DNA from: Acidimicrobiia bacterium
GTDB lineage: Bacteria; Acidobacteriota; Terriglobia; Bryobacterales; Bryobacteraceae
Direction of reading: 5' to 3'
Assembly: GCA_016871315.1 (NCBI GenBank)
Contig: VFZE01000001.1
Span: 124,001-188,000 of the forward strand
Length of the DNA: 64,000 nt
This document shows positions 1,696-58,756 of this stretch, one piece after another. Both the position numbers and the translations under genes were made by a program. Under the pieces are notes generated by a model. That model was not told the origin of the DNA and searched no databases. It saw only the letters and a program-made list of their open reading frames with translations. Numbering within the stretch: position 1 is the stretch's first letter; each line of letters opens with the position of its first letter.

Positions 1696-2118
1696 TCAAC
1701 CGAGCCCCACCCGCAGCCCATACTGGAAGGCAATCACCACCGCCCCAGTCAGTACAACCGAAACCGCAATCGAGGACCGCCACCGCTCCCCCAGCATCCG
1801 CAGGAACGCGATCAGAAAAACCAGCGTGCGAATCGCAAACGGCGCCTGATCCCAAACCAGCAGATATACCAGCAGCAGACCGGCCGCTACCGCCAGTTGC
1901 CGCCGGTTGCCGATCTCAAATACCGGAACCGTCCCGCTCCGCAACGCGCTCACCTGCAGCCCGGCGGCCAGCAGCAACATCACCGCTCCGATCACCCCCG
2001 GAAAAAATCCCGGCCCCGGCAGCGGACCAACGCCCGGTGGAAATCCGGAAGCCGCAACCACAAGCGCCGCGCCAAGCGCCATGAACAGCAGCGCCACCAC
2101 CACATCGGACCGCTTCAT
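1696..2118 (-). CDS. tctB: Tripartite tricarboxylate transporter small permease, TctB family
   Basis: The product is 140 residues with four predicted hydrophobic helices, the usual size and layout of the small membrane subunit of TTT transporters. It begins MKRSDVVVALLFMALGAALV. Its ATG overlaps the tctC stop codon (ATGA, four bases) and its own stop lies four bases before the tctA start, so the three transporter genes are translationally coupled. Sequence conservation in TctB is low across the family, so position between TctC and TctA carries much of the identification. No truncation is seen. Confidence 0.88.
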   Translation of the reverse strand: MKRSDVVVALLFMALGAALVVAASGFPPGVGPLPGPGFFPGVIGAVMLLLAAGLQVSALRSGTVPVFEIGNRRQLAVAAGLLLVYLLVWDQAPFAIRTLVFLIAFLRMLGERWRSSIAVSVVLTGAVVIAFQYGLRVGLG

Positions 2119-3107
2119 GCCGCCCCCCGCAACAGCGCAGGCAGTGTGCTCTCAAAGAATCCGGCCTGCTCGAGGGCAAACTCACGGAACGCCGCGCGAT
2201 CCAGATACAGCGCCGTCATCCCGCGCTCCTCGCAAAGCTTCTGAAACTCCGCGCTTGCGAAAGCCGTCTGAATCGCGCCCGACAGCCGCGCGGCAACCGC
2301 TTCCGGCAATCCCAACGGCCCAAAGAACCCGCTCCAGGCGCTCGCCCCGAAATCAAAGCCTTCCTCTTGCACGCAAGCCACATCGGGAAACAGCGGGCTC
2401 CGCGTCTGGTCAAACACGGAAATCACCTGCAACCCACCCGAGCGGACATGCGATGCCAATTCCCCCACACCCGCCACCGCCGCATCCACATGGCCTCCCA
2501 GCAGATTCGTGATCGCTCCCGAAGATCCGCTGAACGGACAATGGACCAGCCGCATCTTCGCCGCCCGCTCCATCAACAACGCATTCACGTGCCAGATGGA
2601 ACCGGTCCCGGAGTTCGCCACAACGTAGTGTCCCGGACGCCTTCGGACAGCGTCCGCGAATACGCCCAGCGTCTTCCACGCCGCCCCCGCCTGCACCGCC
2701 AGCGCCGGCTGCGTTTTCGATACCAGGCTCAGCAACTCCATCTTTTGCGGACTCACATCGGCATACCCCAGCGTCCGCACCATCGCGATCTCCACCGGCG
2801 CATGTCCAATCGTGTACCCGTCCGGCGCCCGCCTCACCACGTAAGAAAATGCCAGCGCCCCCGCCGCACCCGGCCTGTTCTCGCACACCACCGGCACGCC
2901 AAGTTCTTTCTCCATCAAGCTGCCGATAATCCGCGAAACCGAATCGGAAAGCCCTCCCGCCGCCGCCTGCACAACCAGCTTCATTTCGCGCGCCGGAAAC
3001 GCCCCGCGCTCCCGCCCACAACCGGTGACAGCCAGGCCGGCCGTTGACACCAGGAAGCTCCGGCGATCAAGCGAAGTGCTAAGGGGCATCCGGGTTCTCA
3101 ACGGCAA
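2115..3107 (-). CDS. tctC: Tripartite tricarboxylate transporter substrate-binding protein (Bug/TctC)
   Basis: This is the extracytoplasmic solute receptor of the TTT transporter, 330 residues. The N terminus combines a twin-arginine stretch (DRRSFLVSTAGLAVTGC) with a lipobox ending at Cys30, so it is probably exported and anchored as a lipoprotein. The Bug-family pattern follows: a KLVVQAAAGG lead strand, ENRPGAAG near residue 80, and a domain II typical of the family. ATG 3107 begins at the base after the last base of the cehA-like stop codon. Met7 at 3089 is an equally good start. The bound ligand is unknown; family members bind citrate, dicarboxylates, aromatic acids and others. Confidence 0.9.
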   Translation of the reverse strand: MPLRTRMPLSTSLDRRSFLVSTAGLAVTGCGRERGAFPAREMKLVVQAAAGGLSDSVSRIIGSLMEKELGVPVVCENRPGAAGALAFSYVVRRAPDGYTIGHAPVEIAMVRTLGYADVSPQKMELLSLVSKTQPALAVQAGAAWKTLGVFADAVRRRPGHYVVANSGTGSIWHVNALLMERAAKMRLVHCPFSGSSGAITNLLGGHVDAAVAGVGELASHVRSGGLQVISVFDQTRSPLFPDVACVQEEGFDFGASAWSGFFGPLGLPEAVAARLSGAIQTAFASAEFQKLCEERGMTALYLDRAAFREFALEQAGFFESTLPALLRGAA

Positions 3108-5624
3108 CTAATTCGGCGACACCATCAACGGGTGGCCCAGCGTGTCGCCATTATTCTGCCAGCCGTTGCGGTCCACATCGACAAAGATCGGGTTCGTATA
3201 AGCTATCGGATGCATGTTGGATTTCGCGTCGCGTCCCCATCCCTTCGCGAGATTCGTCTTCTCCCCCACCGCCACCACAATCAAATGCGCGTCCTGTTGC
3301 AGCGCCACGCGAAGGCTTTGCTCGAATTTCACCACGCCGCCGCGGAACATCTCCGGATTCTTCGCCCGCGTGTAGTTGTACTGCGGCGCCTGGCGCCCGT
3401 TGATCAGCACCTGCACGCGGTCGATGTCCATCCAGTCCGGCGTCTGCACTTTGACCTTCAGTTCCAGATGCCCCTCGGCGATCACTGTCGAGCCGATCGG
3501 CAGCCCGTCACCGGTCCTCACCTCCAAAAACGGTCCGTTGGTGATCATCATCCGTCCCGCTTTCGAGTTGCGGATGATCTCCTGATGATCGATGCGCGCC
3601 GGCTCATCGGTGGAACTCGGCACGTAGGTGCGCCAGCCGCCCACCCCATCTCCAAAGATCCGGTGCGCATCGCTCACCGCCACGCACCACACCCGGCGGC
3701 CCTGATTGAGCAGCTGCAGCCAGCCGAAGCTGCGGTTCTGCAAACCTTGATTCGCCTTGTTCCCCGCCACGCCCCAGCCCTGATAAACGGGATTCAAGTT
3801 CAGAATCTCCGTACTCCAGAACTCGGCGGCGTCGATCATGTTCTCAAAACCGGTGAAGCCGCCGTCCTCCACGCGATCGCCGTTACGGTCAAAGAAGACG
3901 TTGCCTACAATCGGGTGATTCGCCTGCACCCACCGGTCCGGCCCGCCGCCGAAGTAGGGCGCCTTGTTTCGCGCATTGGCCTCGGTGTCATAGCGCGAGC
4001 CGCCCGGATGCAGCCCCGGCGTGCCCCAATTCCGCAGCGTGATCGCGTTGATCCGCGGGTCGTAGTTCCACAGTGGCGCGCCGCCGTTCTGCGCCAGCGG
4101 ATCAGGCGTCAAAGGGAAGGCGTTGAAATGCTGTCCGCTTCCGGTCAGCTCGATCCCCGCCACCGTCTTCAGATGTGCGGCCAGTCCGAGCCGCTCAATC
4201 AGCGGCGCCCAATCGACAATGCGGTTGTGCTCGGTTGTCGGCGCGAACTCGACATGCTCGGCCGCGAAGTTGATCATCCGGTCGCGCGTCGAGCAGTAAT
4301 TGTCGCCGCTCGGCGTCGAGTGGGCGTGATAGTCGGTGCTAATCCAGCCGCGCGTGTCCATGCTGCGCTTGAGCACCGCGCTCACCTGCACAGTCTGCTC
4401 CTTGGCCACCTCCACCGTGCGCTCCACCAAGTCAAACTCCGGCCCGCGCGTGATGCGCAGCAGATACTTGCCCGGCGGCACCTGTTGCCGCACGGTGCCG
4501 TCATGCGTCTGATACTGATGATCGTTGCCGTGAACGCGGTACTCGGTTCCGAAGTTCGGAGTCGCCGTGCCCTCCACGCCGAGAAACTGCACTTTGGCCG
4601 GCGAGGGACGGTTCTGCTCATCGCGAATCTCGATCCGCACCTGCGATGCCTTCGCTGGTTTCAAGTTCAAGACCGCGTTTGTACTGGCTCGAACCGTCAA
4701 CGTCTGCGCGACAGTGTCGCGCCCGATGTCTTCCAGCGCCGCACGATATTCCCCCGCCGGCAGCGAAAAGGAAAACGCGCCTTTGGCGTCCGGATACGCC
4801 GGCAGCCTCTGCCCCTGCACTTCGACGAACAAGCTCGCGTGTAGGGCAGGCTCTCCTCCGGCATCCACGGCCGCTCCCGAGACCGTGCCCGCGCTAACCT
4901 GCAGCGCGGCCAACACTCCATAGGCAGCCAGCGGCGAATCCGCGACGGCCAGTGCCATCCGGAAACTCTTCTCTTCCCCGGCGCGCAACTCGGTTTCATC
5001 CAGCGACGCCGTGTCTGCCGCAGGGCCGAACGCATACGCGCGCTTATCGAACGGATCAATACTGTCGCCCACCGTGACCGCGCCCACCTTCCACTCCTGC
5101 GCCAGCCCTTTCCACACCGCCCGCGGCGCAATCTTCTTCCCCTGGCCGGATTCATTGCGGTAGGTGGAGGTGATCAGCAGATGCTGCCAGCCCGGCTCCA
5201 GCCGGTACTCGTGGCGCGTGTACAGTCCGCCGCCCTGGGCCGCCGTGCGCACCACCTCAATTACTCCCTCGCCCGCCACGCGAACCCAACTCACCTCACC
5301 GCTCTCCCCGCCCGGCCGGAACGCCGTCATCTGATCATTCTCCGCGCCGCGCAGATCGAGATCGTAGAGCACACCCTGAAGCACCGCGCCATACTCGGTG
5401 GTCATGTTGGCGCGCCGCAGCGGCTGCCCGCCCGAAATCAGCGCGTGGATCCGGTTGTTGCGCAGAATGAAATCGCCCGGGATGCCGTCGGCTTCCTTGC
5501 CGGCCGGCATCATCGCCGTGTTGACGCGGCTTATCTCCACCGCCTCCACGCGCTCCCGCTGGGCGGTGAGCGCCAACACGATCAGGAAAAGGAATAGACA
5601 GCCAAGAATGAATCGCGTTCGCAT
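3108..5624 (-). CDS. CehA/McbA-type metallohydrolase with PHP domain, exported
   Basis: The 838-residue protein has an N-terminal signal segment (FILGCLFLFLIVLAL), a beta-rich first third, a carboxypeptidase-regulatory-like domain around residues 235-310, and a PHP-type metallohydrolase domain starting near residue 430 with TDYHAHSTPSGDNY, then TTEHN near 463 and a later VSDAH. These His/Asp motifs bind the metal cluster. CehA and McbA, the named members of this family, hydrolyse carbamate pesticides; most members are uncharacterised. A GGAGC Shine-Dalgarno-like motif precedes the ATG. The gene leads straight into tctC with no gap, so its product or substrate may be what the transporter takes up; that link is inference. 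Confidence 0.8.
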   Translation of the reverse strand: MRTRFILGCLFLFLIVLALTAQRERVEAVEISRVNTAMMPAGKEADGIPGDFILRNNRIHALISGGQPLRRANMTTEYGAVLQGVLYDLDLRGAENDQMTAFRPGGESGEVSWVRVAGEGVIEVVRTAAQGGGLYTRHEYRLEPGWQHLLITSTYRNESGQGKKIAPRAVWKGLAQEWKVGAVTVGDSIDPFDKRAYAFGPAADTASLDETELRAGEEKSFRMALAVADSPLAAYGVLAALQVSAGTVSGAAVDAGGEPALHASLFVEVQGQRLPAYPDAKGAFSFSLPAGEYRAALEDIGRDTVAQTLTVRASTNAVLNLKPAKASQVRIEIRDEQNRPSPAKVQFLGVEGTATPNFGTEYRVHGNDHQYQTHDGTVRQQVPPGKYLLRITRGPEFDLVERTVEVAKEQTVQVSAVLKRSMDTRGWISTDYHAHSTPSGDNYCSTRDRMINFAAEHVEFAPTTEHNRIVDWAPLIERLGLAAHLKTVAGIELTGSGQHFNAFPLTPDPLAQNGGAPLWNYDPRINAITLRNWGTPGLHPGGSRYDTEANARNKAPYFGGGPDRWVQANHPIVGNVFFDRNGDRVEDGGFTGFENMIDAAEFWSTEILNLNPVYQGWGVAGNKANQGLQNRSFGWLQLLNQGRRVWCVAVSDAHRIFGDGVGGWRTYVPSSTDEPARIDHQEIIRNSKAGRMMITNGPFLEVRTGDGLPIGSTVIAEGHLELKVKVQTPDWMDIDRVQVLINGRQAPQYNYTRAKNPEMFRGGVVKFEQSLRVALQQDAHLIVVAVGEKTNLAKGWGRDAKSNMHPIAYTNPIFVDVDRNGWQNNGDTLGHPLMVSPN

Positions 5625-5662
5625 AGCTCCATACTATATGTCACGAACCCGATCAGCTTCCG

Positions 5663-8263
5663 TCACGGACGGAGACGCACCGCCCAGTTCAGCACCACGG
5701 TAATCGGCGTGGAACCGGTCAGCGGCTTGATCACCAGAAACCGCTGGCCGTTGGCCGAAGCCGCGTACGCGTTCACCGCGCCTCCCAGTGTCGCAACCTG
5801 TGTCTGGAACATGGTCTCCGGCACGCCCGCCTGGAGCGGGTCCAGGCTCTTGATTCCCACTGCCGTCAGCTTCCGGTCCAGCCCGAGAAAATACAGCTCC
5901 TTGCCATCGCGCCGCCATTGCGGCTGCGCGCCTCCGTGCGAGGAAACCTGCCACTTGGCCCCGGTCGGCGGAAATGGCTGCACATAAATCTCGTACCGCC
6001 CCGACTCATTGGAGCTGAACGCCACCCATTTCCCATCGGGCGAGAAGCGGCCCTGCGTTTCGTCGAACTCTGACTTCGCCACCGCCACCGGCTTCCGGTC
6101 GCCGGACAACGGCAGCGCCCAGATGTCCATCGGCGTGAGTGTCTCGTACAGCAGGAAGCGGCCGTCCCGCGACCAATCCAGCAGGTTGTCCGTGGTGGGA
6201 CTCTTTAGCAACAGCTCCTCCTTGCCGGAACCATCGGCGTTCTTCACATAAAGGTCGAACGTCCCCTCATGATCGGCGGAGAAGGCCACCCGGCGCCCAT
6301 CGGGCGACCAGACCGGACTCAGATGCGGCGAAGCATCAAAGGTCAGCCGCGACAGCGTGCCCCGGTCCGCCTCTAGCATCCAAATCGCGCTCACCGAAGC
6401 CGGTTCCCGCACCAGCGCCACCCGTTTCTCGTCCGGCGACAGCCACACCTCGTCGTAGCTGCCCGGCGGCCCGATCGTTCCCAGCGACGTTCCCTTCCGG
6501 TCGAACCATTCCAACTGAAACTCCTGCACGCCGCCGCCGCGGTAGGCGAGGATCCCCGTTTGCGACGCCGAAAAGCCGGCCAGGCCCCAGAGCGCCCCGT
6601 GCCTCCAGATCGGTTCGGCCACAGGCTGCGCCTGCCCGCTCAGCCGCAGATTGCCGGCATCGAACGGCTGGCTCATCAAAGTGCCTTCGCGCAGGAACAA
6701 GAGCCGGCCATTGCCGGCGTCCGCCGTACCGGCGTGGAGCCCCATCCTGTCGGTGTTCAGCACCAGCCTTGTCTGCTTGGAGTCGAGCGACGACGCGTAG
6801 ACGCCCCGCCTGGAACGCTGGCCGCTGTAGACGAAATAGAGAAAACTTCGCTGGTCGGGGAGAAACTGCGGCCAGCGGTGGCTGGACTCGCCCGCGGCCC
6901 TATCCAGCACGGTCACCGCCTCCGGCCTGCCGCCGGTGGCGCTCACCTGAAGCAGCGGCGATGCCGCGCTGGAAGCCAGCAGAATCACACCATCGCGGTT
7001 CCAGGCTCCTCCACGGGGATCGGATACGTCGCAGATCGTTTGCGGCGCTCCGCCCGCCAGCGATACGGTCTTCAGTTTCCCGCTGGCGAAAAAACCGATC
7101 GAGCGGCTGTCGTGCGACCAGAACGGCAGACTCGCGTTGTCGGTGCCGGCGATCTCCCTCATCTGGCCCGTTTCCAGTGTCCGCACCCATAACGTGAGTT
7201 GTCCGTTTCCCCGGAGAGCGGGAAAGGCTAGATGCCGGCCGGCCGGAGAGACGGCGATCGTCCCGTCCAGGCTGGTCTTCTCCTGCGCCGCAACGCCGAA
7301 CTGGATCACCGGCTGCGGCGGAGCCTCCTTCTGAAGCAGCGTGATCCAGCCCGCGGCGGCAACCACCGCCAGCACCGCCGCCGCCGCAATCCAACTCCAG
7401 GGCCGGCGCGGCGCGGCGGCCGGAGCCTCCGCCGGCGGCGCGTCCCGAATCGCCTCCAGCTCCAGCTTGATATCCAGCGCCGACTGCCACCGCCGTTCCC
7501 GGTCTTTCGCCAGGCAGCGCCTGACCGTCCGCTCCAGCAGCGGCGGCGTAATCGGCTGCTGCGGCATCATCGCCGGTGGATCATGCTCCACGATGGCCGC
7601 CATCAGACTCACCTGCGTCTTGCCGCTGAAGGCGCGCCGGCCCGTCACCATCTCGTACAGCACCGCGCCGAATGCCCAGATGTCGGTCCGCGCGTCAGGC
7701 TCCCTGCCTTCCAGCTGTTCCGGCGCCATGTAGGGCAGCGTCCCCACCAGCGTCCCGGCGGCCGTCAGCGCCTTCGTCATCGTCGCATCGTCCGGTCCAA
7801 ACTGCTTCTTCTGACTCCATTTCGCGATGCCAAAGTCGAGCAGCTTCACGCCGGACTTCGTGATCATAATGTTGGCCGGCTTCAAGTCGCGGTGCGTGAC
7901 TCCCTTACGGTGCGCCGCCTCCAGCGCATCGGCGATCTGGATGCCGTATTCAAACACCTTGGCCAGCGGTTGGGGACAGGGAAGCGTTTCCCCTTCCAGA
8001 TACTCCATCACCAGGAATTCCACGCCATCCTGGCTGCCGATATCGAGCAGCGTGCAAATGTGCGGATGCTGCAAGGCCGCCACCACCCGCGCCTCGCGGT
8101 CGAACCGCTCCCTCAGCCCCGGCTGAGTATCATGCAGCACCTTGATCGCCACCGTGCGGTCCAGCCGCGTGTCCAGGGCCTTGTAGACCTCGCCCATCCC
8201 GCCCGCGCCCAGCGCAGATTGAATCTCGTATGGCCCCAGCCTGGTTCCCGTTCCTAACGGCAT
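5663..8263 (-). CDS. Transmembrane Ser/Thr protein kinase with TolB/WD40-like propeller
   Basis: The N-terminal kinase domain (about 250 residues) has an intact catalytic set: glycine loop GAGGMGEVYKA, VAIK lysine, HRDLKPANIM, DFG and APE. A membrane helix follows (WSWIAAAAVLAVVAAAGW), and then about 550 residues of beta-propeller repeats of the SPDGKWVAFSSNESG type that would lie outside the membrane. This is the standard acidobacterial PknB-like sensor kinase. The start chosen is MPLGTGTRLG at 8263: it matches the start of the paralogue downstream, and a TAGAAT -10-like box lies only 15 bases upstream, so a start 42 bases further upstream would precede the promoter. The gene may read on into the cehA-like gene 38 bases downstream. 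Confidence 0.9.
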   Translation of the reverse strand: MPLGTGTRLGPYEIQSALGAGGMGEVYKALDTRLDRTVAIKVLHDTQPGLRERFDREARVVAALQHPHICTLLDIGSQDGVEFLVMEYLEGETLPCPQPLAKVFEYGIQIADALEAAHRKGVTHRDLKPANIMITKSGVKLLDFGIAKWSQKKQFGPDDATMTKALTAAGTLVGTLPYMAPEQLEGREPDARTDIWAFGAVLYEMVTGRRAFSGKTQVSLMAAIVEHDPPAMMPQQPITPPLLERTVRRCLAKDRERRWQSALDIKLELEAIRDAPPAEAPAAAPRRPWSWIAAAAVLAVVAAAGWITLLQKEAPPQPVIQFGVAAQEKTSLDGTIAVSPAGRHLAFPALRGNGQLTLWVRTLETGQMREIAGTDNASLPFWSHDSRSIGFFASGKLKTVSLAGGAPQTICDVSDPRGGAWNRDGVILLASSAASPLLQVSATGGRPEAVTVLDRAAGESSHRWPQFLPDQRSFLYFVYSGQRSRRGVYASSLDSKQTRLVLNTDRMGLHAGTADAGNGRLLFLREGTLMSQPFDAGNLRLSGQAQPVAEPIWRHGALWGLAGFSASQTGILAYRGGGVQEFQLEWFDRKGTSLGTIGPPGSYDEVWLSPDEKRVALVREPASVSAIWMLEADRGTLSRLTFDASPHLSPVWSPDGRRVAFSADHEGTFDLYVKNADGSGKEELLLKSPTTDNLLDWSRDGRFLLYETLTPMDIWALPLSGDRKPVAVAKSEFDETQGRFSPDGKWVAFSSNESGRYEIYVQPFPPTGAKWQVSSHGGAQPQWRRDGKELYFLGLDRKLTAVGIKSLDPLQAGVPETMFQTQVATLGGAVNAYAASANGQRFLVIKPLTGSTPITVVLNWAVRLRP

Positions 8264-9015: not shown

Positions 9016-10743
9016 GCAACAGCGTGATTGGCCGGTCCTGCGCGCGCTCATTCACCAGGCTCAATGCGAACAGCTTGCCATCAGGACTAGCCGCGAAATG
9101 GCCCGCCGCTCCTGTCCCCCGGCGGGCCTGAAAGAGTGGTTTGATCTCCCCGATTTCAACCGCTGCGCCGCGGAAGCTGATGGCCGCCGCCATCACCTTG
9201 TTGCCGGACAGAAAGTAAAGCTCCTTGCCGTCCCCGCGCCACTTCGGCTCGGAGCCGCTGCCGGTGGAAACCTGCCATTTCCCCCCGCCGGGAGGCAGCG
9301 TTTGGATATACACTTCACGCCGGCCGGTTTCCGTGGAGCTGTAGGCGAAGAACCGGGAGTCCGGAGAGATACGAGGGTGCAGGAAAGCCTGCCCACTAAG
9401 CAAGGGTTCCAGCTTTCCGCTGCCGTCCAGCGAAGCGGTCCACAGGTCACCACCGTTGGCGGCGGCGACTCTTTCAAAAGCGAGGAGCTTGCCGTCCCCG
9501 CCGGCCGGGTTGCCCGTGTGACTGCAAAGAGTGATGGGATCTCCGCCGGAGATGGCGGTCTTCTTGACTGTTCTCCCCGCAAAAAACCCGATCTGACGGC
9601 TGTCCGGAGACCAGAACGAATAGCGGCCGCCTTCTCCGCCGGGCACCATGCTGGACTCCGTGCTATCCATGCGCCGGACATAGAGCCGCTCACCGCCGGA
9701 GCCTGTCGTTGTGTAGGCTAAATAGCGGCCATCGGGAGACAGCGCCATACTGCGGAAACTCGTGTTCACCGGCGGGAAGATTTCGAAACGAACCGGCTCC
9801 GTTGCCGTGGCGGAAGGGCGCAGATGCCAGCCGGCAACTCCTGCCAACAGCGCGAGCCCGGCCGTGAAGACACTCCACACCCGGCGCCGCCGTGCAGCAG
9901 CCGCCCATCTGGGCGGCGGGCTCATCGCGGATCGACTCGATCTCTAGCTTGATGTCCAATGCCGACTGCCACCGCCGGTCAGGATCCTTTACCAGGCAGC
10001 GCCGGATGGTCCGCGCTGGCTGCGGTGGAGTGATAGCGGCGATTTCAGGCGGATCGTGCTCCAGAATCGAAGCAATGAGGCTGGCTTGCGTCTTGCTGCC
10101 GAATGCGCGCTTGCCCCTCACCATCTCATGAAGCACCGCACCGAATGCCCACAGATCCGTTCGCGCGTCGGCATCCCTGCTCTCCAACTGCTCCGGCGCC
10201 ATGTAGGGCAGCGTGCCCACAATCATGCCGCTAGCGCTAGCGGTGAGCGAATCCGTAACGGTGGCATCATCGGGCCCGGGCTGCCGCGCGGAACTGCCCT
10301 TCGCCAGGCCGAAGTCCAGCAGCTTCACGCCGGACTTGGTGATCATGATGTTGGCCGGCTTCAGGTCGCGGTGCGTAATGCCTCTACGGTGCGCCGCCTC
10401 CAGTGCGTCCGCAATCTGCATCCCGTATTCGATCACCCCGGGAAAGCGGCTGCGGGCACTTCAGCGTCTCCCCTGCCAGGAATTCCATCACCAGGAAATC
10501 AGTGCCATCTTGGCTGCCGATGTCGAGCAGCGTGCAAATATGCGGATGTTGGAGAGCGGCAATCACCCGCGCCTCGCGGTCGAACCGCTCGCGCAAATCA
10601 GGCGAGGTGTTGTGCAGCAACTTGATGGCGACCGTGCGGTCCAGGCGAGTGTCGCGAGCCTTGTAGACCTCGCCCATTCCTCCAGCGCCGATCGGCGATT
10701 GGATCTCGTACGGCCCCAACCGCGTCCCGATTCCCAGTGGCAT
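8996..10743 (-). pseudogene. Ser/Thr kinase-propeller gene broken by two frameshifts
   Basis: Three reading frames together spell a second kinase close to the one at 5663-8263. Frame one (from 10743) carries MPLGIGTRLGPYEIQ, the glycine loop and the VAIK lysine up to CPQPLS. The frame changes at about 10440, where the minus strand reads CCCGGGG; dropping one G restores RVIEYGMQIADALEAAH. Frame two carries HRDLKPANIM, DFGLAK and APEQ to about 9910. Frame three then carries a membrane helix and a propeller about half as long as in the paralogue. The net offset is two extra bases. The otherwise clean sequence points to recent damage or to sequencing indels. Kinase-only and membrane-propeller fragments could still be made. 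Confidence 0.75.
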
Positions 10744-51444: not shown

Positions 51445-51457
51445 ATTGGTAGGTAAG

Positions 51458-52597
51458 ATGAAAACCCCCCTCTTCACGGCGATCTGCTTGTTGGCGCTGA
51501 TCCGCGTGCCGGGCTTGGCCTCCGACCCCTTCTCTACCGAGCTTTACCTCCTGGCGCGGGAACCGGGCAAGAATCTCGTCTTGTCTCCCTTCAGCGTCTC
51601 GGCGGCAATGGCCATGGTACATGCCGGGGCCCGCGGCGCGACGCGCGGCGAGATCGCCAAAGCGCTGCGCTTCGATCTGGAAGGCGAAAAACTGGACGCA
51701 CGTTACCGCGACCTTTCCACGCAACTGCCCGACGCAAAAAACTACGATTTGCGGAGCGCCAACGCACTCTGGGCCCACAAAGACTTTCCTGTCGCACCTG
51801 CCTTTGTCTCTCTTTGCCGCTCCTACTACACCGCGCCGCTCGAGACCGTCGATTTCGCGCAACCGGACGCCGCGCGCCTCCGCATCAACTCCTGGGTGGA
51901 GGAGGCCACCGCCCGCCGCATCCGCGAACTACTCCCTCCCGGTTCGGTTGACCCCTTGTCCCGCCTCGTGCTGACCAACGCGATTCACTTCCACGGCAAG
52001 TGGGCAACGCCCTTCCGGCGCGAGAGTACAAAGCCCGGCCCGTTCCGCACACTGCAGGGAGAAAGCGTAACCGTTCCGATGATGGCCCACTCCGGAAGCT
52101 TCCGCTATGCCGAGACCGGGACGGCGCAGATGCTGGAACTGCCGTATGCCGGCGGGCGCATGGCGATGCTCCTTCTGCTGCCCCGCGATGCCACCGGGCT
52201 GGAAGCGCTGGAGAAGAGCCTCCCCGATGGATTGCCCGCGGGCGCGGCCTCACGACCCGTGGCCGTGAAGCTCCCCAAGTTTCAGTTCACCACCTCGCTC
52301 CCGCTGACCAACCTGCTGAATCAGATGGGAATCAAGGCCGCATTTGACGCGGCCCGCGCCGATTTTTCCGGTATCAGCACGGCGGACGGACTGGCCTTGA
52401 CCGCCGTGCTGCACAAGGCCTTTATCGAAGTGAACGAGGAAGGAACGGAAGCGGCCGCGGCCACCGGCGCGATCATCGGAGTCACCTCCTTCATCGAACC
52501 GGTTGCCTTCACCGCCAACCGCCCCTTCCTGTTCCTGATCCGCCACGCCGCCACCGGCACGGTGTTGTTCGCGGGCCGCGTCGCCGATCCACGCTAA
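51458..52597 (+). CDS. Serpin with inhibitory-type hinge, exported
   Basis: The 379-residue protein starts at ATG 51458 with a signal peptide (PLFTAICLLALIRVPGLA). The serpin core is complete: VLSPFSVSAAMAMVHAGARG, VLTNAIHFHGKWATPF and the C-terminal signature FTANRPFLFLIRHAATG. The hinge EEGTEAAAATG matches the small-residue pattern of inhibitory serpins, so it should trap proteases by loop insertion; by alignment the scissile bond lies near Val-Thr-Ser. It follows the TolC gene by 13 bases and so probably rides on the efflux transcript. It converges on the trypsin-like gene with two bases between stops. Confidence 0.9.
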   Translation: MKTPLFTAICLLALIRVPGLASDPFSTELYLLAREPGKNLVLSPFSVSAAMAMVHAGARGATRGEIAKALRFDLEGEKLDARYRDLSTQLPDAKNYDLRSANALWAHKDFPVAPAFVSLCRSYYTAPLETVDFAQPDAARLRINSWVEEATARRIRELLPPGSVDPLSRLVLTNAIHFHGKWATPFRRESTKPGPFRTLQGESVTVPMMAHSGSFRYAETGTAQMLELPYAGGRMAMLLLLPRDATGLEALEKSLPDGLPAGAASRPVAVKLPKFQFTTSLPLTNLLNQMGIKAAFDAARADFSGISTADGLALTAVLHKAFIEVNEEGTEAAAATGAIIGVTSFIEPVAFTANRPFLFLIRHAATGTVLFAGRVADPR

Positions 52598-52599
52598 CG

Positions 52600-53634
52600 T
52601 CAGGTTTTTTGCGCCGACATGGCTCTTGCCGTTTCCGGTTTCGCCAGTTCCAACTTCGCCTCGATCCTCTCGCTTAATTCCTTCATCGTTCTGGATAGCT
52701 TGCAGGCGACCGTCAGCTTGCCGACGGGTGCGAAGGCAAGTCCCACCGCGGCGTCCTTATCCTTCAGCACGACGGCCGCGCCGGAGTCGCCATCGGCCGC
52801 CAGGCCGCCGTCATCCCATTCAATGAGAAACTGGTCCGCGAAGCGGAACGTGCCGAAACCGTAATCGACGATCATCTCCGCCGTGATGTCGGTGACCGTC
52901 CCTGTGAGTTTGCCGGTGCTCTTGCCGAACATGACCACCTTGTCCCCAATTTTGGGCACCTCGATGTCGGTAATGGTCCGCCCGTCGGGGAAGACAGGAC
53001 TAACCTTGCCAGCGTAACCGTCCTTCACCTTCGCCAGGGCGCAATCGACGAAATTCACCTCGCCGTGGAGCAGGGGCACGGAGGACTCCAGCTCTGCGAA
53101 GGCAATCGGGTTCTCTGCGTGATGAAGGTCCTCGAAGGCGGGAGACACAATGTCGGTCCCCACCGGAACGCGTCCCTTAATCGCCAGCACGTGATTCGTG
53201 CCAAGGATATAGAGCTTTTTTTTCTTGTCCTTGATCACAAGGCCGAGAGTGCCGGAAATGGAGTGGGGGTTACCCGCCTGATGGGGGCCAATTGAGGCGC
53301 CCGGTGCGATGTTTGCGCCGGAGTGTCCGTCCGCTTCCTCGTGCCGTACACCGGGAAACGGAGAAACCGGAAAATCCATCGCGATCACGTCGGTGCTCAC
53401 ATCGGGGAAGGGTGAGGTGACCACCGAGGAAGCCGCGACATGCTCCAGCGGGTGTTTGATGCTCACGTAAACGCGCACGCTTGTCGTTCCTGTATCCACG
53501 CCTTCGATCAGTTTCGGACCGATACCCACGCCGACGACGTTTCGCCCTGCGGGCTTGCCCAGGAATCGGTTGGCCAGTATCTGCCGCGCTGCCTGTAACC
53601 GTTGCTCAGTGGGTTGCGGAGGTTTCGTGCTCAT
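52600..53634 (-). CDS. Trypsin-like serine protease, no signal peptide
   Basis: The 344-residue protein starts at ATG 53634 (MSTKPPQPTEQRLQAARQIL), preceded by AAGGAAG. A chymotrypsin-type triad can be read: His148 in YILGTNHVLA, Asp197 in VNFVDCALAKV and Ser284 in DGDSGAAVVL. About 125 N-terminal residues precede the fold, including NVVGVGIGPKL and a TSVRVYVSIKHP strand. No signal peptide or membrane helix is seen, so it is probably cytoplasmic. An A8 run (53223-53216) encodes KKKK just before the catalytic His. It is the last gene of the sigma-CHAT operon, 13 bases after the unknown gene. Confidence 0.8.
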   Translation of the reverse strand: MSTKPPQPTEQRLQAARQILANRFLGKPAGRNVVGVGIGPKLIEGVDTGTTSVRVYVSIKHPLEHVAASSVVTSPFPDVSTDVIAMDFPVSPFPGVRHEEADGHSGANIAPGASIGPHQAGNPHSISGTLGLVIKDKKKKLYILGTNHVLAIKGRVPVGTDIVSPAFEDLHHAENPIAFAELESSVPLLHGEVNFVDCALAKVKDGYAGKVSPVFPDGRTITDIEVPKIGDKVVMFGKSTGKLTGTVTDITAEMIVDYGFGTFRFADQFLIEWDDGGLAADGDSGAAVVLKDKDAAVGLAFAPVGKLTVACKLSRTMKELSERIEAKLELAKPETARAMSAQKT

Positions 53635-53647
53635 GATTTCTTCCTTT

Positions 53648-54553
53648 CTACGAGCATTCGTTCCAGCAATCTGTGCAGGCGCTGGTTTTGTCATCCAGCG
53701 CCTCCGAGGGGAACCACAGAAGATTCAGATCGCGGCCGGACTTCCGCATCCGGCCCATCTGGCCCAGCCGCGCCATCCGCGGCGTCAAATCCTCCGATTC
53801 CTCCGGGGGAATCCCATCCGGCAGCGACTCGGGGAAGAGAAAACTTCGCGAACGCCGGTTGGTGATCTTCAGATCAACGCCGCTCATCAGATTCATCAGG
53901 CGATCGAAGGCCGTGGTTGTGTGAGAGTTGCCATGATCCTGATCCGGGGATGCGAACACGTGAAGATTGACGGTGGACTTACCTTCCGGACCGGAAAAGG
54001 CCGGCTCCCAGGCATGGCCGGGGTTGCCCTTAATCCGCAGCTTCGCATCGTCCTTGAAGCGATAGCTGAGGATCTGGAGCGTGGCCATATGTTCCTGGTA
54101 GCCTGCCGGAGGCTTGCCATCGAGATCGCCCTCGGGAACATGTGCGCGGCGCGGTGTGAAAATCGCGGCCGGCATGGGAACGATCAGGTTGGCATGCACA
54201 CCGGCTTTTGCATTGAGCGGTGCGTCGGCAAAGATGAGATTGTGCTTGGGATCCGGCAGTGCCGCGCCGGGTTCCAGGCCCTCAATCTCGTAAGTCGGAA
54301 TGCCCCCGCCGCCATGCGCGGCGTGGCCGAACTGGGTTTCTCCCAGCCAATTCCCGGCCCGGAACACATGATCTTCGACCTTGGGCATTAGGACTTCGAT
54401 TCGCTTCTCCCCGCGACGGATCACGAAGAGAAAGGTGCCGTGGAAGAAGATGTGCATGACGCCGGCGTCTGCTTGCTTCGTCCTCGGCCCGGGCGTATCC
54501 GGATTCGGGATGGCGGGAGCGCTTTGCGTCGCTAAGGGATTGTGACCATTCAT
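53648..54553 (-). CDS. Unrecognised operon protein with cysteine-rich tail
   Basis: I do not recognise this 301-residue protein. It starts at ATG 54553 (MNGHNPLATQSAPAIPNP) with GGAGGA upstream. A disordered proline-rich N terminus of 28 residues is followed by a beta-rich core (VMHIFFHGTFLFVIRRGEKR, NLIFADAPL, HANLIVPMPAAIFTPRR, LQILSYRF) and a charged linker around residues 235-265 (PEESEDLTPRMARLGQMG). The last residues are SACTDCWNECS, three cysteines in nine residues. No signal peptide or catalytic motif is seen. It sits between a CHAT protease and a trypsin-like protease, 32 and 13 bases away, so it may be their substrate or adaptor; that is inference. Confidence 0.75.
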   Translation of the reverse strand: MNGHNPLATQSAPAIPNPDTPGPRTKQADAGVMHIFFHGTFLFVIRRGEKRIEVLMPKVEDHVFRAGNWLGETQFGHAAHGGGGIPTYEIEGLEPGAALPDPKHNLIFADAPLNAKAGVHANLIVPMPAAIFTPRRAHVPEGDLDGKPPAGYQEHMATLQILSYRFKDDAKLRIKGNPGHAWEPAFSGPEGKSTVNLHVFASPDQDHGNSHTTTAFDRLMNLMSGVDLKITNRRSRSFLFPESLPDGIPPEESEDLTPRMARLGQMGRMRKSGRDLNLLWFPSEALDDKTSACTDCWNECS

Positions 54554-54585
54554 GTAGTCCTCCAATTGATCTGCATTGCCAGTAT

Positions 54586-56922
54586 CTAGCGGGACCCAAA
54601 CAGCTGGAATCCCGCCCAAAAGTACGGGTGAGCGGTTCCGGATCGGCTCCGGACCGCCGAAGCGGAGCGTTGCAAGGCCTGCGCCGCCCCGCTCCCGGAA
54701 AGGATTGCCGAATAGAAATCCTGCATCAGCGCGGCGCTGGTCTCCGCATCCGCCTGCCAGCGCGTCGCCACCACTCGCGGTACCCCCGCCCAAAGAAACC
54801 CTCGCACCAGGCTTTCCGGATTCACAGGACCTCCTGTCTCCCCGGTGCCCGTCGAACAGGCCGACAGGATCGCAAGCCGGCATCGGCTCCAGTCCTGCCC
54901 GGCCAGCCTTCCGCCATGCAGAATATCGGCCCCCAAGGCGCTCCCGCCGGTGGGCGCAAGCAGCAAACCTCCATCGCCGGAATTGCTGAAACCGTGTCCG
55001 GCGAAATGAAAAACCTCGGCCGAGCCGCGCAGCCGGTCCACGGCGGGCCAAGTGGCTTCCTCGCCGGTCAGCAAAGCGTGGCGGCGGAAGTGGCTGGACA
55101 CCGCGCGGCCTTCCTCCAGCGCGCGGATCAAGGGCGGAAAGGCGCGTTGCATCTGGGCGCCCAACGCCGGTTTCGCAACTACCAGCGCCTGGCTGGCATC
55201 GGTAACCGTTGCCGCCGTGGATCGCCGCAGATAATCGGACACGCTGGAGGCCACGACAACCGGGAAGCGCTCCCCCACATAACGGCCGTGGGGATCCATC
55301 AAAGCCTGGAACGGGATTGCCGCAACAGGACCATCCGGCTCCACCGCGAGGATACGCCCCGGCCCCAGCCTTTCCTCGAGCGGAGCCAGCAGCCAGTCAT
55401 ACAACTTCCTCGCCTCCCCGCGCAGCAGCGCGCCGTCGGAGCCCGCATCCGCGCACAGCCGGGCGAACCGCCGCGACGCCGGTTCCAACTCTTCCGCGCT
55501 CACCGTCAGCCGCACCGCCTTCAGCCCGCGGTCATCCATAACCCAAACCACCACTCCGCCGGGCAAGGCAGCATAGCTCAGGTACGTCTCCTTGCCCAGC
55601 CTTGCGGCCTCGGGCGCGGGCCGCGCGCGCGACTGCATCGTCTCCCCTGCCCGGTAATCCTGCCATACGCGGAACGCGGCGGCAGAGTCCTTCGCCCATC
55701 CCATTTCGGCGATCCCACGGTAGCAGGAAGCCGCGTCCTGAAGACTGCGCGTGCGCCGGTCGGAAGCACTCAGCGATGCCAGACGCCGCTCATTCAGTTC
55801 GATCCCCGCCTGCCAGGCATCCTCGGCCGGCTTCCGGGCCCCGGTCCGCCACCTTGCTTCACCCAACGTCTGAAAGAAGGAGAGCCGGATGCCGCTGGAG
55901 CCGTGTGTCGCCGCTTGGGCGCGAATGCCCTCCAGGCGCTGCGCAGCCGCCTCGGCCGCGCCACCTGCAATCTCCAGCCGGGCCCGCTCGATGTCGGCGT
56001 CTACGCGGTTTAGCTGCGCCAGGCCGGATCCACTCATCGCTTGATACAGCCTCTCCGCGCGCCCGTATCCATCGCGTGCCCGTTCCTTCATCCCCGCCGC
56101 GGCGGCAAGATTGGCGGCAAGAACACGGTTGGATGCCTCCACCATCGGCCGTCCGCTTCCCGCGATGGCAGTCACCTGTGCCTCGGCGAAATAGTAGGCG
56201 GCGTGCTTCCAGCTCAGCTCGCTCGCCGTCCGCGATAAATTGAATTGAATCTGTTGCGCGCGATTACCCGGGTAGGCCGCGCTCCAGTACCGTGCCAACC
56301 CATCCCTGCCCATATTCCACGCGATCAGCAGATTCCCTGCGTGCGTTTGGCTCGCCGCCAGGATACCCTCCGCGCGCATCGCCAGCACCGGATAATCCGC
56401 GCCCATGGCCGTCCCGCGGCCCTGGAAGTAGATCCGCTGGGCCCCGTCCTGATCGGCTAGCATGCTGCGGCAGATTCCTTCCTCGATCTCCATCTGCGCC
56501 TGTATCCACCTGAACCCCGCCGCCCTTGCCTCCCGTTCCACCGCCTCAGCTTTTTTGACGCATTCCTCCGGACGCCGCATCCAGTGCAGCGCATAAACGT
56601 ACTCTGCATCGGCGCGCACGGCGGCAGCTTGATCCCCCCCCGCCCGCAGCAACCTCGAAGCCCGGGGAGCTGTTTCCACCGCCTCATCGGCGCGATCCGA
56701 TGCATTGGCGGTAGCGGTTTCCGCCAGAAGCGCCAAGCCCCGCTCCACATCCGGCGTTCGCGTCGCGCTCATCACTCGACCGAGCCACGGATCCCGGTGA
56801 TGGTGGTTCAGCAGCAGTCCCAACCGCTGAAGCGCCTTCTCCGCATTCGCGTCCTTCCACCGCCGCGGCAGCCACTCCGTGACGGCGATCTCCAGATAGC
56901 GCTCCCTCTCCACAGCCGACAT
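54586..56922 (-). CDS. TPR-CHAT caspase-like protease
   Basis: The 778-residue protein has an N-terminal two-thirds of helical TPR-like repeats and a C-terminal CHAT domain at about residues 500-778. The caspase-type dyad is intact: His643 in VFHFAGHGFSN and Cys689 in LAILSACSTGTGE. Other CHAT landmarks are AIPFQALMDPHGRYV, LRGSAEVFHFAG, GFLWAGVPRVVATRW and HPYFWAGFQLFG. CHAT peptidases cut after basic or other residues in signalling and death pathways, such as the TPR-CHAT of the type III-E CRISPR system. The only ATG is 56922, with GGGAG just two bases away, a poor site; the frame stays open upstream as far as the A10 tract in the preceding gene. Confidence 0.9.
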   Translation of the reverse strand: MSAVERERYLEIAVTEWLPRRWKDANAEKALQRLGLLLNHHHRDPWLGRVMSATRTPDVERGLALLAETATANASDRADEAVETAPRASRLLRAGGDQAAAVRADAEYVYALHWMRRPEECVKKAEAVEREARAAGFRWIQAQMEIEEGICRSMLADQDGAQRIYFQGRGTAMGADYPVLAMRAEGILAASQTHAGNLLIAWNMGRDGLARYWSAAYPGNRAQQIQFNLSRTASELSWKHAAYYFAEAQVTAIAGSGRPMVEASNRVLAANLAAAAGMKERARDGYGRAERLYQAMSGSGLAQLNRVDADIERARLEIAGGAAEAAAQRLEGIRAQAATHGSSGIRLSFFQTLGEARWRTGARKPAEDAWQAGIELNERRLASLSASDRRTRSLQDAASCYRGIAEMGWAKDSAAAFRVWQDYRAGETMQSRARPAPEAARLGKETYLSYAALPGGVVVWVMDDRGLKAVRLTVSAEELEPASRRFARLCADAGSDGALLRGEARKLYDWLLAPLEERLGPGRILAVEPDGPVAAIPFQALMDPHGRYVGERFPVVVASSVSDYLRRSTAATVTDASQALVVAKPALGAQMQRAFPPLIRALEEGRAVSSHFRRHALLTGEEATWPAVDRLRGSAEVFHFAGHGFSNSGDGGLLLAPTGGSALGADILHGGRLAGQDWSRCRLAILSACSTGTGETGGPVNPESLVRGFLWAGVPRVVATRWQADAETSAALMQDFYSAILSGSGAAQALQRSASAVRSRSGTAHPYFWAGFQLFGSR

Positions 56923-56966
56923 TTCTCCCAGGTCAACAAATCCCGCCGCCTCAGGGTTGATCCTCT

Positions 56967-58079
56967 CTATCGCCCTGCCGCGGACTTTTTTTTTTGCTCC
57001 ACTGCCTCCAGCCGCCGTCGTGCCTCATCCGCCCAGCCGCCGGAATCATCCAGTGCCAGGTACTTCCTCCATTCCTCCGCCGCCTGATCGTACAGGTGCA
57101 TGCGCTCCAGAACAACAGCCAGATTGAAAATCACCTCCGGCGTATTCGGTGCGGCCTTCAACGACCGGCTCAAATACTCCATCGCCGCTCCATAATCTAT
57201 GGCCCGATCGGCGCTCTCCGCGCGTAGCGCATGCGCCACGCCCAGCGAGGCGAGCAGCGCCGCATCCTCCGGCTTGCGCTCCAGCGCGCGGGTCAGCGTG
57301 GCGATTGCCGCCTCCGGATCCCAACCCAGGATTTCGGCGCGCGCCCGCAGCGCCAGCCACCCGGCATCCTCGGGGCTTTTTTCCAACTCCCGCGCGATGA
57401 TTCCTTCCGCCTCCAGCAATGCCGCCGGCCGCGCGAATGACCCAGCCGGGCTTTTCTCGATCCGCACCGGCCCGTGCTCGGCGCCCGGCAGCCGGAACTC
57501 GAAAGGCCGCTGCGCCGTGTAGGCCGCCGCCATCAGTTGCTCAGGCTGACCCGCCCGCCATGCCGTATAGCCGTACCATCCCGCTCCCACTGCCACCACC
57601 AGGGAAGCCGCCCACGCCAGCCACATCGTCGCCGGCCTCGGCCGCCTCGTTCCGGCAAGCCGCCCCGCCAAGTCCTTTTGCCAGACCGCGCCTGAACTCG
57701 GCAAGCTCGAAAGGAACTTCATCTCGTCCGTGCCCATCGGTTCGGCCAAGTCCTCCAACACCTCGCGCAGTTGCCTGCCGCAGGAATCGCATCCAGCGGC
57801 ATGTTCCATCCATGTCTCTTTCTGGTCCGGCGGCGCCGTACCAGCCGCCAAACGGACAAGATCAGCTAGAGCCGGGCATGCGGGACCACGGCTCTGTCCG
57901 GTGGCAGGCCGGACCAGTTCCCTGAGCCTTTGCTCTTCTTCCTTGTGCATATTCAAAACCTTGTTGCATAACGGGCAGTCTTCGGCATGTTGCAGCAGGT
58001 CCGCGGCCCGAGACCCTTCCGCCGCGAGGCAATACTCAATCTCTTCCCTGCTCAGATGTTCATTTGCCGGTCTTTCCAA
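56967..58079 (-). CDS. Membrane anti-sigma-like protein with two zinc fingers and TPRs
   Basis: The product is about 370 residues from a TTG at 58079, chosen because AAGGGG lies seven bases upstream and no ATG or GTG is available before the first zinc finger. It carries two zf-HC2-type motifs, HAEDCPLC (His31, Cys35, Cys38) and HAAGCDSC (His93, Cys97, Cys100), as in anti-sigma factors. A membrane helix follows at about 152-174 (MWLAWAASLVVAVGAGWYGY), then TPRs from about 225 to the end (EAAIATLTRALERKPEDAAL; TPEVIFNLAVVLERMHLYDQ). The finger region would be cytoplasmic and the TPRs outside. It follows the sigma gene by 23 bases and probably binds that sigma factor. Confidence 0.8.
   Translation of the reverse strand: MERPANEHLSREEIEYCLAAEGSRAADLLQHAEDCPLCNKVLNMHKEEEQRLRELVRPATGQSRGPACPALADLVRLAAGTAPPDQKETWMEHAAGCDSCGRQLREVLEDLAEPMGTDEMKFLSSLPSSGAVWQKDLAGRLAGTRRPRPATMWLAWAASLVVAVGAGWYGYTAWRAGQPEQLMAAAYTAQRPFEFRLPGAEHGPVRIEKSPAGSFARPAALLEAEGIIARELEKSPEDAGWLALRARAEILGWDPEAAIATLTRALERKPEDAALLASLGVAHALRAESADRAIDYGAAMEYLSRSLKAAPNTPEVIFNLAVVLERMHLYDQAAEEWRKYLALDDSGGWADEARRRLEAVEQKKKSAAGR
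56986..56995 (-). other. A10 tract at the 3' end of the anti-sigma/TPR gene
   Basis: Ten As on the minus strand (CAA AAA AAA AAG in the reading frame) lie 16 bases before that gene's stop codon. A -1 shift, or one extra A in the mRNA, continues as KVRGRAIERINPEAAGFV and on without a stop into the CHAT start methionine. In a GC-rich genome such a run is unusual. Confidence 0.85.
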
Positions 58080-58102
58080 CCTCTCACCCCTTATAACGGC
58101 CT

Positions 58103-58756
58103 CTAAGCCGACTTTCCCTCTGGATTCCCCCCGGACCGTCCGATCAGCCACGCACGCACCTTGCCGCTGGTCCGCTGGATCACGCTTTCCACCCCTTTTT
58201 GCGTCAATCCGAACGCCGGAATCGCCGCTATCGCTCGCGCCGTCAGACCCTGCCTGTAGTAAAGCCAAAAAATGCGCCGGTCCTCCGGACGCAGGTCTGA
58301 CGACCGCAGAAACCCGTCAATCTCTTGAATGAGAATCCTCCGCTCCATCTCCTGCTGCGAATCCTCGCTTTGCGAATCCGCCTGCCGCGTCTCCTCCAAG
58401 GACTGCTCCGGAACCCCCGCCCCGCGCTTTTCCGTCAGCCGGCCACGCCAATGATCATGCGCCACGCTGAAGGCGATCGATTTCATCAGCCCGAACACCG
58501 CCTCCGGATTCTCTGACTCGAATTCGCGCAACACGCGGCAGCGGTTGGCGCACACACGCAGCAGCGCGTCCTGCACCAGATCATCCACTATTTCTTTGTC
58601 AGCCTGCCCGAACCGCCTGCTGACGCGGTAAACCGTGCCGGCGATCACCGGCTGGACCAGGCCGACAAATCGCTCCCAGGAATCGGCATCGCCCGAATCG
58701 GCGCACTGACGAATCAGCCGCCATAGCTCGGCCGAAGACGGAGCGCCCGGGAACAT
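58103..58756 (-). CDS. ECF-like RNA polymerase sigma factor
   Basis: The product is about 217 residues from ATG 58756 (MFPGAPSSAELWRLIRQC). Region 2 is seen in VDDLVQDALLRVCANRCRVL and AFSVAHDHWRGRLTEKR, and region 4 in EDRRIFWLYYRQGLTARAIA followed by LTQKGVESVIQRTSGKVRAW, which has the GVESVIQRT recognition helix common in acidobacterial ECF sigma factors. No Shine-Dalgarno is clear; earlier in-frame ATGs exist. It heads the operon and is followed by an anti-sigma-like gene, so it likely drives its own operon and perhaps others. A TATAAT box lies 48 bases upstream. Confidence 0.85.
   Translation of the reverse strand: MFPGAPSSAELWRLIRQCADSGDADSWERFVGLVQPVIAGTVYRVSRRFGQADKEIVDDLVQDALLRVCANRCRVLREFESENPEAVFGLMKSIAFSVAHDHWRGRLTEKRGAGVPEQSLEETRQADSQSEDSQQEMERRILIQEIDGFLRSSDLRPEDRRIFWLYYRQGLTARAIAAIPAFGLTQKGVESVIQRTSGKVRAWLIGRSGGNPEGKSA

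Follow-up and report, generated by a model that had tools for sequence, protein, structure and literature searches.

The window analysed here, a 64-kb stretch of acidobacterial DNA, carries a five-gene cassette encoding an ECF-type sigma factor, a zinc-finger anti-sigma factor, a TPR-CHAT cysteine protease, a protein without family match (termed U) and a trypsin-fold serine protease, with a run of ten adenines where the open frames of the anti-sigma factor and the CHAT protease overlap. From the sequence comparisons, we propose that the cassette may encode a sigma/anti-sigma switch at the membrane that carries a protease of its own, and in which slippage at the run would yield both a free anti-sigma factor and an anti-sigma–TPR–CHAT fusion, while the proteolysis and sigma release that would follow are hypothetical; we put the probability of this reading at about 0.48.

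Gene content and conservation of the cassette

The five open reading frames lie on the minus strand where the initial annotation had placed them (52600-58756), at 58756-58103, 58079-56967, 56922-54586, 54553-53648 and 53634-52600, and their intergenic gaps, from the sigma factor to the protease, are 23, 44, 32 and 13 bases, a layout that agrees with the single transcription unit claimed for them. Between the five genes, a consensus scan of the minus strand found no promoter-like or terminator-like sites; it says little, because its counts were at or below those of shuffled sequences. The scattering in relatives that would have spoken against a unit was not seen: the order sigma/anti-sigma/TPR-CHAT/U/trypsin-like was found again in eight relatives, one of them from another family, the four-part order as well as the sigma/anti-sigma pair is retained in 15 of 18 loci, and the catalytic residues are conserved in relatives carrying the cassette. 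We recognised no account of this gene combination in the titles, opening parts of abstracts and selected passages that made up the literature surveyed.

The first gene (58103..58756, minus strand) encodes an ECF-type sigma factor of 217 aa, which matches NCBIfam TIGR02937 at 47.9 bits (cut-off 42.9) and Pfam sigma families below cut-off. Adjoining it is the gene of the anti-sigma factor (56967..58079, minus strand; 370 aa, TTG start), the product of which possesses two HxxxCxxC zinc-finger motifs, C-terminal TPRs and one weakly hydrophobic segment preceded by basic residues; the adjacency of an ECF-sized sigma-70-region protein and an HxxxCxxC protein bears out the sigma/anti-sigma pair proposed previously. 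The hydropathy maximum of the window anti-sigma factor is 1.47, under the threshold of 1.6 for a hydrophobic segment. Maxima range from 1.19 to 2.17 in the other loci with a run at this junction (1.19-1.60 in the A-run loci) and from 1.40 to 2.69 in 22 fused relatives, three of which (L035, L041 and L160) fall below 1.6. The setting is that of soil acidobacteria, with the anti-sigma factor as the brake on a stress sigma factor.

The TPR-CHAT cysteine protease (54586..56922, minus strand; 778 aa from its own ATG) matches Pfam CHAT with an E-value of 9.8e-58 and has His643 and Cys689 exactly at the positions reported for them. Of 35 aligned proteins, 34 retain both residues, and the remaining one (L004) is truncated.

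The product of the fourth gene, U (53648..54553, minus strand; 301 aa), has an HG motif near the N-terminus and a Cys near the C-terminus, and was rightly called unrecognised. No family was found for it in Pfam, NCBIfam, PADLOC or PHROGs (weak Pfam matches, E>0.2, were taken as chance), a profile search against PDB sequences gave nothing beyond one match at E=0.45, likewise taken as chance, and an AlphaFold model from three sequences had a mean pLDDT of 34.1. Judged by eye, the HG motif brought a gasdermin, a caspase or an alpha/beta hydrolase into consideration as speculative identities for U. The distribution of U is patchy, with 17 of 237 family genomes carrying it (own genome included), and it is detectable in 12 of the 24 CHAT-bearing loci of the second locus set. 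Export-type N-termini (Tat, lipobox or Sec-type) are present in 11 of 32 U members (L160 by eye); no export signal was seen in the window U. U represents a protein family without library match that marks this system across five family labels of one class (f1, f4, f7, f11 and f16).

The fifth protein (52600..53634, minus strand; 344 aa) is predicted from its structural model (mean pLDDT 62.1) to have a NAL1-type trypsin fold, with Foldseek ranks 1-33 all being rice NAL1 and the fold matching over the whole length. His148, Asp197 and Ser284 occupy the triad positions given before; a comparison of 11 trypsin-like proteins shows His and Ser in every one and Asp in 10. The Pfam Nal1_C match is below cut-off, and a match to the PHROGs viral family phrog_20754 'protease' was obtained at 3.1e-32. 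No export signal was seen in the window protein, and its use as a single query against genome contigs returned 87 pattern matches, none of which was confirmed.

Two bases from the stop of this protease gene ends a convergent serpin gene (51446..52597, plus strand; Pfam Serpin, 6.4e-111), which lies outside the conserved unit. Its product has, by eye, an apparent signal peptide. The serpin was considered as a cognate inhibitor and rejected: serpin relatives occur in four of 21 genomes, one of them the own genome, in the other three they lie off the cassette contig, and the serpin is treated as a neighbour only.

The junction of anti-sigma factor and CHAT protease

Anti-sigma factor and CHAT form a single protein in 23 of the 37 relatives' loci in which both parts are visible (8/16 in the first set of relatives' loci and 15/21 in the second), and because of these fusions the previously suggested link between CHAT and a sigma regulator is strengthened. 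To our knowledge, few bacterial CHAT proteases, which belong to the caspase superfamily, have an identified target; where such a protease is part of the same protein as an anti-sigma factor, the anti-sigma factor itself is its likely target.

In the window, the initial annotation had treated the two as independent components separated by 44 bases; more probably, a single gene containing a slippery site encodes both. The 44 bases hold as the distance between the called ORFs but probably mark no true gene boundary, because the open frames overlap across an A10 run (56986..56995, minus strand; T10 on the plus strand), the proposed slippage site. The junction reads ...GAG CAA AAA AAA AAG TCC..., with the CHAT frame at -1 relative to the anti-sigma frame, and the CHAT open frame extends to 57024, beyond its own ATG. 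The linker upstream of this first CHAT ATG (56923..56985, minus strand) aligns, in the CHAT frame, to the linker of natural fusions.

The A10 run is the sole A/T run of at least nine bases within the 64-kb window. The same layout, an A or T run of 9-10 bases in the overlap and CHAT shifted to frame -1, was found in six loci (the window, L004, L032, L034, L146 and L147), four with A9-A10 and two with T9. In these loci one added base fuses the frames, and the resulting products stay open across the junction and can be aligned along the linker to 22 natural fusions. Across the 667,004 bases of 47 loci there are eight A/T runs of at least nine, six of which fall in anti-sigma/CHAT overlaps; the own genome (6.25 Mb) has six, and of the other five, four are also in predicted reading frames. 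The four A-run loci form one clade together with L010 (95/91), and the T-run pair is placed elsewhere (100/100) among fused proteins. Two further loci, L086 and L076, show +1 splits without a run, with undetermined bases (an assembly gap) at the L086 junction and a contig of 3,038 bases for L076; these splits are probably due to assembly and are treated as exceptions.

A run of at least nine A/T at a frame junction with conserved coding on both sides is thus present, as in genes with programmed transcriptional slippage. According to parts of a previous report, RNA polymerase slips efficiently in vivo at nine A or T (PMC5009743). The RNA downstream of the run folds no better than shuffled sequences (z -0.08), which speaks against structure-stimulated ribosomal frameshifting.

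Proposed switch and alternative explanations

In the reading we favour, two products would arise from one gene, either by RNA polymerase slippage at the run or by a -1 shift of the ribosome at A AAA AAG, which is the dnaX-type frameshift heptamer. These would be a free anti-sigma–TPR protein and an anti-sigma–TPR–CHAT fusion, and the slippage ratio would set the amount of protease per anti-sigma factor. The zinc-finger part would keep the ECF sigma factor in the cytoplasm, with the TPR and CHAT parts across the membrane; a signal acting on U or on the TPR/CHAT part might activate CHAT, which could then cut neighbouring anti-sigma molecules as a built-in site-1 protease, and further proteolysis might release the sigma factor. 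U would be a partner or substrate of CHAT, and the NAL1-like protease a lineage-specific further step or effector. The lack of export signals in the window U and trypsin-like protein fits poorly with CHAT acting outside. Weak hydrophobic segments in the A-run loci and separate start codons in some loci count against the slippage model.

A broader proposal for Acidobacteria is made a little more tentatively. RNA polymerase slippage at runs of A9-A10 or T9, which would have evolved in each of two separate clades, would determine how much of the membrane anti-sigma factor carries the protease and how much lacks it, with CHAT as the built-in site-1 protease in a dose governed by the homopolymer, U (a new and sometimes exported family) as ligand or substrate, and the NAL1-like protease as a lineage-specific addition. 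If true, the recurrence of a recoding site at the same linker in two clades would mean that the dose of a signalling protease is controlled in an unusual manner.

Rather unlikely, by comparison, is an arrangement of two separately translated genes, in which a plain membrane anti-sigma factor is accompanied by a TPR-CHAT protease that is soluble in the cytoplasm and has U, the anti-sigma factor or the trypsin-like protein as its substrate, and the A10 run is incidental. Separate CHAT translation is possible in three loci because start codons with Shine-Dalgarno-like motifs follow the run (in the window an ATG 21 codons past it with GGGAG just upstream, in L004 a GTG with GGAG, and likewise in L032), but none was found within 120 codons past the run in L034 and L147, and the sequence before the window ATG, read in the frame of CHAT, can be aligned with the fused linkers. 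CHAT does stand alone, at junctions without a run of at least nine, in seven relatives' loci (L010, which has A7, L011, L033, L038, L039, L148 and L152); however, these seven proteins carry their own hydrophobic segment near the N-terminus (maxima 1.29-2.01), and the CHAT frames of the six run loci have none (0.62-0.96). The missing export signals of the window U and trypsin-like protein would suit a cytoplasmic protease, whereas runs of such length are rare and yet common to six loci.

Homopolymers are the usual site of assembly length errors, and the own genome is a draft assembly in 166 contigs, two relatives are MAGs and one base suffices to fuse the frames. Frames that are truly fused might have been split by such an error, or the run might vary in phase as replication slippage changes its length. 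This explanation is unlikely, as six loci in two clades would need an error in the same direction, and a coding run of ten or eleven, with one base more, should still slip. Phase variation at the run would itself be a switch.

A role in programmed death or phage defence, which had been suggested from caspase-plus-trypsin conflict systems and in which U would be a sensor or toxin, found no support and is improbable. PADLOC matches none of the five proteins, which also lack NTPase or adaptor domains above the Pfam cut-off, and tblastn found U in no phage or plasmid records and the trypsin-like protein in no phage records. Judged by its N-terminal signals, U would moreover be exported in several lineages, which argues against such a role. 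In favour of it are the patchy distribution of U, the match of the trypsin-like protein to a viral protease family, and the resemblance of the protease pair plus ECF sigma factor to the EACC2-caspase neighbourhoods in which genes for ECF sigma factors and TPR proteins occur, as far as parts of PMC8195603 describe them.

Comparison with known systems

Regulated proteolysis of membrane anti-sigma factors is exemplified by RseA/DegS. The proposed switch resembles it in having a membrane anti-sigma factor with a cytoplasmic sigma-binding part and a proposed proteolytic release, and differs in that the first protease would be a CHAT cysteine protease within the anti-sigma polypeptide. The fold over the whole length and the catalytic triad are common to the fifth protein and the rice NAL1 proteases, whereas the window protein is bacterial, is 15-19% identical in those structural alignments that were listed and matches Nal1_C below cut-off.

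RseA/DegS is also named in a report on type III-E CRISPR CASP, which states, in the passages relevant here, that Csx29 (TPR-CHAT) cuts Csx30 and thereby relieves CASP-sigma (PMC10028731). In both cases a TPR-CHAT protease is genetically tied to an ECF sigma factor and an inhibitor. Unlike Csx30, which in those passages is a separate substrate (PMC10028731), the anti-sigma factor here is a zinc-finger membrane protein that shares one polypeptide with the protease or is connected to it through a slippery run. A CASP type III-E locus would contain a Cas7-11 effector and Csx30/Csx31; PADLOC gave no match among the five proteins of the window. EACC2-caspase neighbourhoods, as outlined in part of Kaur et al. 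2021 (PMC8195603), contain an ECF sigma factor and a DUF1822 TPR gene, and thus likewise combine a caspase-superfamily protease with an ECF sigma factor and a TPR protein, with trypsin-like domains among the variable parts. However, the five proteins of the window have no EACC, TRADD-N or EAD match (Pfam, PADLOC), and the zinc-finger anti-sigma fusion and the slippery run were not met in that part of the description.

Finally, dnaX is reported, in parts of PMC5009743, to be expressed through a ribosomal frameshift in E. coli and, in Thermus, through slippage of the RNA polymerase at nine A/T. As proposed here, an A/T run of at least nine would similarly yield two products of one gene, which differs from dnaX in that the longer of the two would be an anti-sigma factor extended by a protease and that A and T runs occur in separate clades at the same linker.

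Order and partners of the five-gene unit

The unit in the window consists of five genes, all on the minus strand and separated by 23, 44, 32 and 13 bases, which encode an ECF sigma factor, a zinc-finger anti-sigma factor with TPRs, a TPR-CHAT protease, a 301 aa protein without family match (U) and a NAL1-like trypsin-fold protease. It is flanked by a divergent RpiB-like gene on one side and a convergent serpin gene on the other (51446-52597, plus strand). The serpin, a serine-protease inhibitor adjoining two protease genes, has an apparent signal peptide, and its stop lies 2 bases from the protease gene; among the relatives checked, none showed a serpin next to the cassette.

Because U matches no family, it was chosen as the search query. 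U was detected in at least 3 of 101 genomes, at least 5 of 399 class genomes (single-sequence query) and at least 17 of 237 family genomes (profile query), the own genome included each time, and in at least 1 of 297 genomes of a phylum draw, namely the own genome alone; these are lower bounds because most searches scored no more than the best few candidates of each genome. U was not found in the sole other genome of the same genus (86% complete). Among 18 extended loci of relatives (L-numbers), the same-strand series sigma, anti-sigma, CHAT and U is present in 15, including L039, where the contig ends within U and the sigma and anti-sigma parts are joined. The three exceptions are L012 and L036, cut by contig ends, and L034, whose U and protease genes are divergent and adjoin the sigma gene. 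The trypsin-like gene lies downstream of U in nine of the 18 (in the rest it is missing or the contig runs out), and also after U in the window and in L148, which carries another family label. All parts share one strand in eight relatives (L004, L010, L011, L032, L033, L035, L037 and L148), a count that admits a fused anti-sigma–CHAT gene or a second U. The unit proposed in the initial annotation is real and conserved, and the catalytic residues given there for both proteases are correct, while the suggested death role found no support.

In L005, a sedolisin-like protease (5126-6808) takes the place of the trypsin-like gene after U, and in L043 a protein whose metalloprotease matches are weak and sub-threshold is encoded upstream (1790-3124); by eye, each adjoins a member of one shared unknown family. 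Genes resembling Ser/Thr kinases by eye lie downstream of the cassette in L004, L011 and L042, perhaps by chance.

All 32 U proteins examined (a set excluding L037, L039, L087 and L158) carry a Cys within the last 40 residues, despite a mean column identity of 25% among 18 of them; the C-terminus shows CxxCC in one group and Cys with a Gly-rich tail in others. Of 24 CHAT-bearing loci in the second locus set, 12 have a detected U; among the others, some reach contig ends or hold by-eye candidates only. Remote U-like exported proteins, seen by eye after CHAT and without a U-profile match, are encoded in L155 (9822-10736), L161 (10175-11431) and L152 (7044-8006). Two loci without U after the fused CHAT gene instead have a clostripain-like protein (by eye) convergent with it (L157, 10282-11931; L159, 10240-11577). 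From adjacency, our guess is that U might be a partner or substrate of CHAT. For the fifth protein, the 33 best PDB matches of its model (mean pLDDT 62.1) are rice NAL1, and its catalytic His (11/11), Ser (11/11) and Asp (10/11) are largely kept.

Anti-sigma and CHAT as one protein in relatives

Among relatives' loci with both parts visible, anti-sigma and CHAT share one frame in 23 of 37, from two sets: 8/16 (L005, L013, L035, L037, L040-L043) and 15/21 (L153-L165, L087, L089). L042 is counted as fused, though its HMM match starts at the membrane segment and a zinc finger is not confirmed there. The remaining 14 comprise five split at a run, seven with separate genes (L010, L011, L033, L038, L039, L148, L152) and two with a +1 split without a run (L086, L076). 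A profile of the region from anti-sigma TPRs to CHAT TPRs gave matches, at E up to 1e-20 in both searches, in 41 of 399 class genomes (from 27 of 136 genera) and in 25 of 237 family genomes. For 25 of those 41, the match covers no fewer than 400 of the 446 positions within a single frame of 1,064-1,311 codons, with the zinc-finger part in another gene in genomes G428 and G287; the other 16 give partial matches, often of the anti-sigma part alone.

The proposed slippery junction and the putative membrane segment

The anti-sigma frame of the window ends in ...EQKKKSAAGR-stop, coded over GAG CAA AAA AAA AAG TCC, and the CHAT frame is open across this end in the -1 frame. The layout is repeated in L004 (A10), L032 (A10) and L034 (A9), and L146 and L147, under another family label, have T9 at a slightly different linker point, and CHAT likewise sits in the -1 frame there. 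One added base yields open frames that are 984-1,244 codons long, measured from the stop upstream, and whose linkers align to 22 natural fusions; the window fusion would have about 1,164 aa from its TTG start by arithmetic. The joined frame of L004 stops early because of a second frame break in its CHAT (~9639-9712, reverse-strand reading), which has a short repeated stretch and is perhaps an assembly error. This anti-sigma–CHAT gene with its putative slippery junction makes the unit more interesting than first reported.

Judged from start codons after the run, CHAT is possibly translated separately in some run loci: the window has ATG at 21 codons with GGGAG ahead, L004 has a GTG 25 codons on with GGAG, and several starts are present in L032. 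L146 has weak ones only (a TTG 20 codons on that lacks a motif, and a GTG 45 codons on with GAGG). L034 offers a single GTG, and in L147 the earliest start is 71 codons away from the run; neither of these two has a motif.

Between the zinc-finger and TPR parts, 22 fused proteins have a segment with hydropathy of 1.40-2.69, three of them below 1.6 (L035, L041, L160); the four A-run loci reach just 1.19-1.60, and the two T-run loci 2.17 and 1.73. Each of seven separate CHAT genes encodes a segment of its own close to the N-terminus (1.29-2.01). For the six run loci, no such segment was found in the CHAT frame (0.62-0.96), so that slippage would supply a membrane anchor from the anti-sigma part. 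Basic residues ahead of the segment (positive-inside rule) suggest that an anchored CHAT would sit outside the cytoplasm. Predicted export of U in 11 of the 32 members, ten of which belong to other families, fits this location, whereas the leaderless U and trypsin-like protein of the window do not. Slippage would give a free anti-sigma factor and a fusion; the signalling mechanism is put forward as a hypothesis.

Rarity of the runs and the probable mode of slipping

Selection against A/T runs is evident from nine nucleotides in a large share of 108 genomes (PMC1088944). In 667,004 bases (window and 46 other loci), only eight A/T runs of at least nine were counted, six of them inside anti-sigma/CHAT overlaps totalling 786 bases. 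Uniform placement would give this with a chance of 1e-18, a value better read as two clades with long retention since the loci are related. In a tree of 35 CHAT proteins, the four A-run loci and L010 form one clade (95/91), and the T-run pair is placed elsewhere (100/100). The window and L034 are separated by ~2.4 changes per site (sum of branches), L034 being a long branch of less sure placement; L010 has A7 only and its own membrane segment. The seventh run is a T9 lying between the CHAT and U genes of L148, and the eighth a T10 within the fused frame of L160 (6937), where slipping would shorten the product, opposite to the arrangement in the window.

The own genome has six A runs of at least nine on both strands of 6.25 Mb; of the five besides the junction run, four fall within predicted reading frames, so the mere presence of a run does not count as evidence. 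The lysines of the junction run are not spelled in the default way, since AAA accounts for 25% of Lys codons among 42 mechanically selected ORFs of the window and for 29% among 12 named genes. An A9 at L169 (317) and L170 (2730), two near-identical own-genome stretches on two short contigs, falls in a gene that is acyltransferase-like by eye.

In a literature search for the CHAT domain together with frameshift and a sigma factor, no paper came up. PMC3711429 mentions neither 'anti-sigma' nor 'CHAT', the first 300,000 characters of PMC5009743 contain neither 'anti-sigma' nor 'CHAT domain', and the sole match for transcriptional slippage, anti-sigma factor and frameshift concerns mycobacterial tRNA and non-coding RNA. 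No RNA structure was found downstream of the run, which, together with the occurrence of both A and T runs at this junction, favours polymerase slippage over ribosomal frameshifting. Counting toward ribosomal frameshifting, A AAA AAG is also the dnaX heptamer. Slippage by RNA polymerase at nine A or T is highly efficient in vivo (PMC5009743).
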